Assembly: GCA_003062205.1 (NCBI GenBank)
Contig: PQCP01000119.1
Span: forward strand, 1-38,887
Reading direction: 5' to 3'
Length of the DNA: 38,887 nt
Source: Candidatus Sedimenticola endophacoides
Lineage (GTDB): Bacteria > Pseudomonadota > Gammaproteobacteria > Chromatiales > Chromatiaceae
Under the pieces are notes generated by a model. That model had not been told where the DNA came from, did not search any database, and saw only the letters and a program-made list of their open reading frames with translations. A program made the translations under genes and the position numbers. Position 1 is the first letter of the stretch. Each line of letters opens with the position of its first letter. This document shows positions 30,727-38,767 of the stretch, piece by piece.

Positions 30727-30880
30727 TGAAAACTCCGAATTGTACGGGTTGGTCCTCCACGCATCCCGGCTGCCGACCCGGTTTCCCAGGCACCCCAGCA
30801 GGCGTGTCGATACGTGTGTGTAGTCGTTTCGGGCCGCCGGACGCGGCCCTTCTCTCGGATCGTTTGCGATTCCAAGGCGC
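30727..30880 (-). promoter_or_regulatory. rpsB structured leader, candidate S2 autoregulatory site
   Basis: The leader can form a 7-bp stem, GGGCCGC (30849-30843) with GCGGCCC (30837-30831). Nearer the start it can form CCUGG-GAAA-CCGGG, a GNRA-type tetraloop hairpin. In gammaproteobacteria S2 represses its own rpsB-tsf mRNA through a conserved leader structure. That this leader does the same is inferred from position and structure. Confidence 0.4.
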
Positions 30881-36621: not shown

Positions 36622-38129
<1,508 letters not shown>

Positions 38130-38185: not shown

Positions 38186-38214
38186 TTGACGGAATGCTAA
38201 TATTAGAATATTAT
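38186..38214 (+). promoter_or_regulatory. strong sigma-70-type promoter of the small RNA
   Basis: TTGACG (38186-38191), a 17-base AT-rich spacer and TATTAT (38209-38214) form the best promoter in the window. Transcription would start near 38221. It lies 57 bases after dapE in an AT-rich patch. Confidence 0.8.
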
Positions 38215-38220
38215 TATTAA

Positions 38221-38391
38221 ACCGATTGCCTATATGCAGCTTCTCAGTTGCTGGTGATTGCAAGGGGTTGGATCTTCAAGGCCCGGCCAAAGGCCGTATC
38301 GCAGTAGCGTCGGACCTTGTGAGATCCTTATCTCCTCCATCCTCCTTTGGTGGTTATGTTGAGCCCGGCTTCCCCAGTCGGGCTTTTTTTT
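38221..38391 (+). ncRNA. candidate orphan small RNA, about 170 nt
   Basis: This stretch has its own promoter and intrinsic terminator and no credible reading frame. A long outer helix pairs GGATCT (38270-38275) with AGATCC (38322-38327) and CAAGG (38277-38281) with CCTTG (38315-38319). It encloses two hairpins, CGGCC-AAA-GGCCG (38284-38296) and CGC-AGTA-GCG (38300-38309). A pyrimidine-rich single-stranded run TCTCCTCCATCCTCCTTT (38331-38348) then precedes the terminator; it resembles an anti-Shine-Dalgarno seed. It does not look like 6S RNA, tmRNA, the SRP RNA or any riboswitch I know. It could also be a leader with an attenuator for the cheX-like gene. Confidence 0.6.
38362..38391 (+). terminator. 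rho-independent terminator of the small RNA
   Basis: AGCCCGGC pairs with GTCGGGCT (one G-U pair) over a 7-base loop, followed by a run of eight T (first shared with the stem). It lies 84 bases before the cheX-like ATG. Confidence 0.9.
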
Positions 38392-38475
38392 GGATCTGCG
38401 AGTCCGAAGCCTGTACTCTGAAAGAAAAACGGTATGATCGCCGTTCCTCTCGCAAACCAGAGCGCAACCAACAGT

Positions 38476-38767
38476 ATGCAGGCCCTATTCATCAATCCCT
38501 TCCTTCACGCCATACAGGACGTCATGACGACCATGGCCAGGATCGATGCGACCCCCGACAAACCCACCTTGAAACGCGACAGTCACGCCTTCGGCGACGT
38601 CACCGGGCTGATCGGTCTGAGCGGCAAGCAGGCCCAGGGCTCACTCGCCATCTCCTTCCCCGAGTCGGTAATCCTGGATATCACCCGGCGCATGATCGGA
38701 GAGCGGCAGAGCCAATTGAACGACACCGTAACCGATATGGTGGGAGAGATCACCAACATCGTCTCCG
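38476..38767 (+). pseudogene. CheX-like chemotaxis phosphatase, 5' part, interrupted by the 300-bp repeat
   Basis: From ATG 38476 the frame reads MQALFINPFLHAIQDVMTT, then GDVTGLIGLSGKQAQGSLAI, SFPESVILDITRRMIGE and DMVGEITNIVSA. This matches the CheX family, CheY-P phosphatases, including the E-x-x-N catalytic motif (EITN). CheX proteins have about 155 residues; here only about 97 native residues precede the repeat, and the frame continues into repeat sequence without similarity. The missing part is the last strands and helices of the fold. A TATGAT hexamer about 43 bases upstream may be its -10 element. Whether the 3' remainder survives beyond the window cannot be seen. Confidence 0.75.

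Follow-up and report, generated by a model that had tools for sequence, protein, structure and literature searches.

A candidate anti-Shine-Dalgarno small RNA with a near-invariant 5' loop in Candidatus Sedimenticola endophacoides and its relatives

The window, by which we mean the whole stretch of 38,887 nucleotides analysed here, carries a small-RNA gene with its own promoter and terminator at 38186-38391, between dapE and a cheX-like gene (Table 1). The dapE stop codon at 38129 is followed by the promoter, about 170 non-coding bases and the terminator, which ends at 38391; the RNA start, predicted from the promoter sequence only, lies near 38221 and gives a predicted RNA of about 170 nt. 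An earlier sequence-only reading of this DNA had proposed a near-consensus promoter and a textbook terminator, and both held up on comparison: the promoter arrangement recurs as TTGAYR-N17-TATTMT in four homologues, and a terminator comes after the anti-Shine-Dalgarno (aSD) sequence in every homologue not ended by a contig edge. As sequence patterns alone, however, neither exceeded chance expectation (one promoter found compared to 0.5 expected; two terminators compared to 1.5), and the two calls are credible because they are conserved in homologues.

Table 1 Features of the small-RNA gene and the adjoining cheX-like gene in the window
Feature	Positions	Strand	Description
Sigma70-type promoter	38186-38214	+	-35 TTGACG (38186), N17 spacer, -10 TATTAT (38209-38214); 10/12 matches
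5' leader hairpin of long (sigma70-driven) forms	38221-38262	+	Predicted by folding; sequence not conserved
New 5' domain	38263-38327	+	Long imperfect stem closing a near-invariant loop of ~21 nt; core CCAAAGGCCGTATCGCAGTAGCG at 38287-38309
aSD1	38332-38338	+	CTCCTCC; reduced or absent in several homologues
aSD2 hairpin	38337-38353	+	CCATC-CTCCTTT-GGTGG; contains CCTCCTTT at 38341-38348; loop predicted accessible
Intrinsic terminator	38361-38391	+	10-bp stem (38361-38385) and U8; part of model R2
cheX-like gene, 5' part	38434-38767	+	Pfam CheX, 3.8e-12; outside the RNA unit; interrupted at ~38768

The RNA folded better than 197 of 200 shuffled sequences (z -2.6; 3/200). The closed multi-branch helix first described gives way across homologues to a single long stem capped by a large conserved loop. 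For the run TCTCCTCCATCCTCC, described as unpaired, the full-length fold divided the claim: CTCCTCC was mostly paired (mean unpaired probability 0.06), whereas the loop CTCCTTT was open. Elsewhere in the window, a t44 RNA (RF00127) at 30748-30838 on the minus strand (66.1 bits) was the sole Rfam match.

The description of the RNA as an orphan was wrong because it belongs to a multi-copy family, with two related copies elsewhere in the same genome. A search of 142 related genomes matched it in 82, mostly over query positions 112-171, which correspond to the 3' module, and the loci that were read fall into three classes. The window RNA typifies class A; in the short class B RNAs, CTCCTCCATCCTCCTTTGGTGG and a terminator come after a variable hairpin; class C RNAs have the 5' domain in common with the window copy, but a single CTCCTCCTTT. 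All three are present in the window genome, class A at 38221-38391, class C on contig C151 and class B on contig C162. The class C paralogue (L108, G000:C151) sits between the genes for DAHP synthases II and I, and its loop carries an A-to-C change (GGCCGTATCGC) that is also found in the window copy, so that both deviate identically from the consensus. The class B copy (L109, G000:C162:7189-7251, minus strand) lies between queA and tgt, antisense to both; its promoter reads TTGACG-N17-GAAACT, and many genera have class B genes with a TTGACA-N17/18-GAAAnT layout.

The 3' part of the RNA (38331-38391) is an aSD module, usually present in one to three copies per genome. Model R2 scored 80.2 bits for 38331-38389 and matched 49 of 57 family genomes and 95 of 274 class genomes. 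Nearly all members contain the 8-nt CCTCCTTT, which we take to be the sequence of the 16S rRNA tail, and the motif CCUCCUUU is kept in nearly all class A and class C homologues and in the loop-less class B RNAs. The aSD2 stem is CCATC/GGTGG in most homologues, AATCACC/GGTGATT in L074 and ATCAATC/GATTGAT in L035, which shows that this hairpin is kept by compensatory change. By comparison across relatives and fold prediction, the window RNA has the features of a trans-acting aSD sRNA, namely its own promoter, a terminator and a conserved, accessible aSD. A self-standing sRNA with an aSD element is well supported by the conserved promoter and terminator, by compensatory stem changes and by the presence of the 8-nt copy of the 16S tail in nearly all homologues. 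No curated family of its own exists for the aSD module, which is found widely in Gammaproteobacteria and may deserve an Rfam entry.

Upstream of this module, the loop of the 5' domain has the near-invariant consensus CAAAGGCAGUAUCGYAGYRGY (~21 nt) and is closed by a 12-bp stem. Covariance model R1, which counts the window copy among its building sequences, matched the window at 38263-38342 with 58.8 bits. When 24 class A and class C homologues were aligned around CCAAAGGCAGTATCGNAGTAGYG, changes on both sides were seen in 11 of the 12 stem pairs, and 85.4% of stem cells were paired compared to 63.3% in shuffles and at most 49.5% in every slid version. Stem covariation was 0.683 compared to 0.293 in shuffles, a value reached by 0 of 500; as the sequences are related, such counts cannot be read as probabilities, though the margin is wide. 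The stems of paralogues are wholly rewritten while the loop is almost unchanged. A scan of 84,980 species gave 30 matches, of which 20 proved on reading to be followed by an aSD and the other ten look unrelated; the aSD-bearing matches come from Sedimenticola, the Solemya velesiana gill symbiont (G001, of the window's genus) and two Chromatiales/Gammaproteobacteria MAGs. R1 matched 17 of 126 family genomes, including two weak and apparently spurious matches that were discounted for want of a terminator or aSD (G015 and G071), and gave no convincing match outside the family across 274 class genomes, where a match in G288 was set aside as apparently lying within coding sequence.

Promoters of the family are of more than one kind. 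A CRP/FNR-like palindrome, TTGN8CAA, lies 19-20 nt 5' of an extended -10 element, TGnTnnnAT, in 20 of 26 homologues. The palindrome is typically TTGCG-AATT-CGCAA in class C and TTGAT-AATT-ATCAA in class A, with half of it kept in L074, and the class C copy of the window genome reads TTGCGAATTATCAA-N20-TGC-TCTTAT. Judged by position, TTG-N8-CAA near -41.5 with no -35 box would be the layout of class II activation by CRP/FNR, and transcription of most homologues looks dependent on an activator that is presumably of this family. Five class A members (the window copy, L045, L059, L065 and L075) have TTGAYR-N17-TATTMT further upstream and hence a longer RNA; by its promoter sequence, the window copy has lost the CRP/FNR-like box and moved to a sigma70-type promoter. 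The exact palindrome TTGCGAATTMKCAA was found at 15-16 sites in 12 genomes, nine of them at these RNA genes, compared to zero control matches. Palindromes of the TTGCGAATT type also lie 5' of other genes (L140, L148), for example at the start of a gene identified by eye as a TehA/SLAC1-like transporter, a hint that a small regulon may exist. Among the proteins encoded by the window genome are Hfq and six that score above the Crp/FNR helix-turn-helix cut-off; in one of the six (L130), the cysteine cluster and the recognition helix are FNR-like. The TTGCG half-sites differ from canonical FNR.

The genomic surroundings bear on whether the RNA belongs to a neighboring gene. The RNA genes occupy two fixed syntenic sites: class A copies have a PaaI-type thioesterase gene or dapE on one side and cheX, a QueG-like gene or ppk1 on the other, and class C copies have a class II DAHP synthase gene upstream on the same strand and a convergent class I gene. 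A ligand-sensing leader of the cheX-like gene had been offered as a second reading, and cheX does lie 3' of the RNA on the same strand in the window and in six other loci (L063, L069, L071, L074, L075 and L077). A cis-acting riboswitch or attenuator is contradicted, however, by the terminator with U8 that separates the RNA from cheX and by the position of class C copies between two DAHP synthase genes. Moreover, no cheX adjoins the RNA in L041, L059 and L065, and none was found within the 1.5 kb downstream of it that the shorter sequences of L035 and L045 cover. A repeat starting at 38767/38768 interrupts the cheX of the window but leaves the RNA intact. The RNA is independent of cheX because cheX is missing or broken by an insertion sequence where the RNA persists, and the leader is already refuted as a general explanation; we give it next to no weight. 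The repeat itself runs off the contig (38768-38887) and has 41 identical 118-bp copies in the genome, several of them at the ends of contigs, a pattern suggestive of an insertion sequence that expanded recently. Processing of the RNA from the dapE 3' UTR would suit the window, where dapE is directly upstream on the same strand and no clear terminator precedes the RNA, but the RNA's own promoter is conserved in five loci and the upstream gene varies between dapE and PaaI. In L045 the upstream gene is divergent and the RNA there cannot derive from it, and we consider this origin very improbable. The presence of several copies in many genomes could also reflect a mobile repeat or terminator element that regulates nothing; few copies, fixed syntenic sites, compensatory changes, dedicated promoters and an unchanged unpaired loop speak against this reading, which is very unlikely. 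A plasmid or phage origin was dropped when no match was found.

We therefore favor, with a probability of roughly 0.75, a free-standing trans-acting sRNA of about 170 nt that would block ribosome-binding sites with CCUCCUUU. The RNA would be transcribed from its own promoter and ended at its own terminator, and in its 3' module the loop of a small hairpin would expose CCUCCUUU, the copy of the 16S anti-Shine-Dalgarno tail, close behind a second motif, CUCCUCC, on the 5' side. Pairing of CCUCCUUU with purine-rich ribosome-binding sites of target mRNAs, probably assisted by Hfq, would then block translation, and analogy with the RF02278 and ar14 RNAs supports translational repression, the best reading. 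The ~21-nt loop may form a second contact, as an mRNA seed or a protein-binding site, which would confer specificity beyond a generic aSD. An activator of the CRP/FNR family would drive most homologues, and the window copy would rely on its sigma70-type promoter. Counted against this explanation are the predicted pairing of aSD1 in the window copy and its degeneration or absence in L063, L069, L071 and L077. A search for complements of the aSD also found no target: with the 14-nt aSD complement and one mismatch allowed, nearly all exact matches in seven genomes were the sRNA genes themselves, and extended complementary aSD targets were dropped for this reason.

The conserved loop could instead be the business end of a mainly protein-binding (sponge) RNA, in which the CU-rich stretch would only contribute to stability, autoregulation or Hfq binding. 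Conservation is highest in the loop, even between paralogues whose stems have nothing in common, aSD1 decays in several class A copies, and the loop segment CAAAGG is complementary to CUUUG of the aSD hairpin and could mask the aSD. This complementarity shows no convincing covariation, however, and class B RNAs, which have no loop, retain CUUUGG, so that a pseudoknot between the two is unproven. The retention of CCUCCUUU throughout the family, class B included, likewise argues against a sponge, which we regard as unlikely. Within the aSD-sRNA reading, it is possible, and we propose it tentatively, that the loop constitutes an RNA recognition element of a new kind, with no relation to any Rfam family. 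In two paralogous CRP/FNR-controlled sRNAs of Sedimenticola-type bacteria it may contact a specific protein or RNA partner and so make a generic aSD module a targeted or switchable translational repressor. Adjacent genes were ruled out as targets of the loop, since pairing in the start regions of neighboring genes was no better than with shuffled loops.

While the class of aSD sRNAs is already known, the literature searched, most subscription journals lying outside it, appears to contain no description of the 5' domain, its restricted phylogenetic range or its promoter architecture; one search, whose results were mostly unrelated papers, found no sRNA work on Sedimenticola. These results define a family of structured sRNAs shared by a gill symbiont of clams and sediment-dwelling bacteria of the Sedimenticola group, and they extend an RF02278-like aSD architecture to many Gammaproteobacteria. 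They make two questions testable: the source of specificity in an sRNA that carries little beyond the ribosome's own tail, for which the invariant loop is a candidate, and the swap of an activator-dependent for a sigma70-type promoter in a homologous sRNA of a symbiont-related lineage.

Several characterized sRNAs resemble the window RNA in part. FnrS of E. coli and PaiI of Pseudomonas are controlled by oxygen or nitrate and might serve as functional analogues should the palindrome at -41.5 be an FNR-type site; the likeness is functional, with no sequence or structural relationship shown, and the window copy has no such box. The Neisseria NmsR sRNAs differ in their tandem arrangement, and the part of the NmsR source available mentions no invariant loop of ~21 nt. 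The alphaproteobacterial ar14/NfeR1 RNAs contain the ultraconserved aSD motif CCUCCUCCC (PMC10746234). Together with cuckoo and CcsR, they are like the window RNA in having conserved aSD motifs in unpaired regions and variable stems; in ar14, cuckoo and CcsR, however, CCUCCUCCC is repeated in hairpin loops, whereas the window RNA lacks it and has CCUCCUUU and CUCCUCC. CcsR loci adjoin a DUF1127 (CcaF1-type) gene, none of which was seen among the neighbors of the window RNA, and the ar14 model scored 17.3 bits on the window RNA, which is chance level.

The closest likeness is to RF02278, the Betaproteobacteria toxic small RNA or Burkholderia double-hairpin. The claim that no known RNA family fits was correct at curated thresholds, since neither the window RNA nor its counterparts at six homologous loci reached any Rfam gathering score, but the 3' 63 bases of the window RNA resemble RF02278 below threshold (38.5 bits against a cut-off of 50; E 2e-6); anti-hemB gave 31.2 bits for the same bases at the relaxed threshold. 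RF02278 was found above its 50-bit cut-off in 0 of 38 related genomes, and genuine members, which score 70-73 bits on their own model, reach a weak 20-27 bits with R2. The two also differ in the 5' domain, which R1 did not find in four genuine RF02278 loci: RF02278 RNAs are almost wholly two hairpins (57-67 nt, or processed thereto), whereas the window RNA is predicted at ~170 nt. The Burkholderia double-hairpin RNAs are expressed, overexpression of ncS27 slows growth and its silencing speeds growth, and 55-80% of predicted interactions lie around start codons (PMC5688073; PMC4603805). RF02278 RNAs also occur in several copies per genome, and their predicted targets are ribosome-binding sites. 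The window RNA has the same architecture of two hairpins with a CU-rich aSD between and within them, in the order CUCCUCC, hairpin with the aSD in its loop, and terminator. On this sequence comparison the 3' module, though a non-member by the curated test, is built like RF02278.
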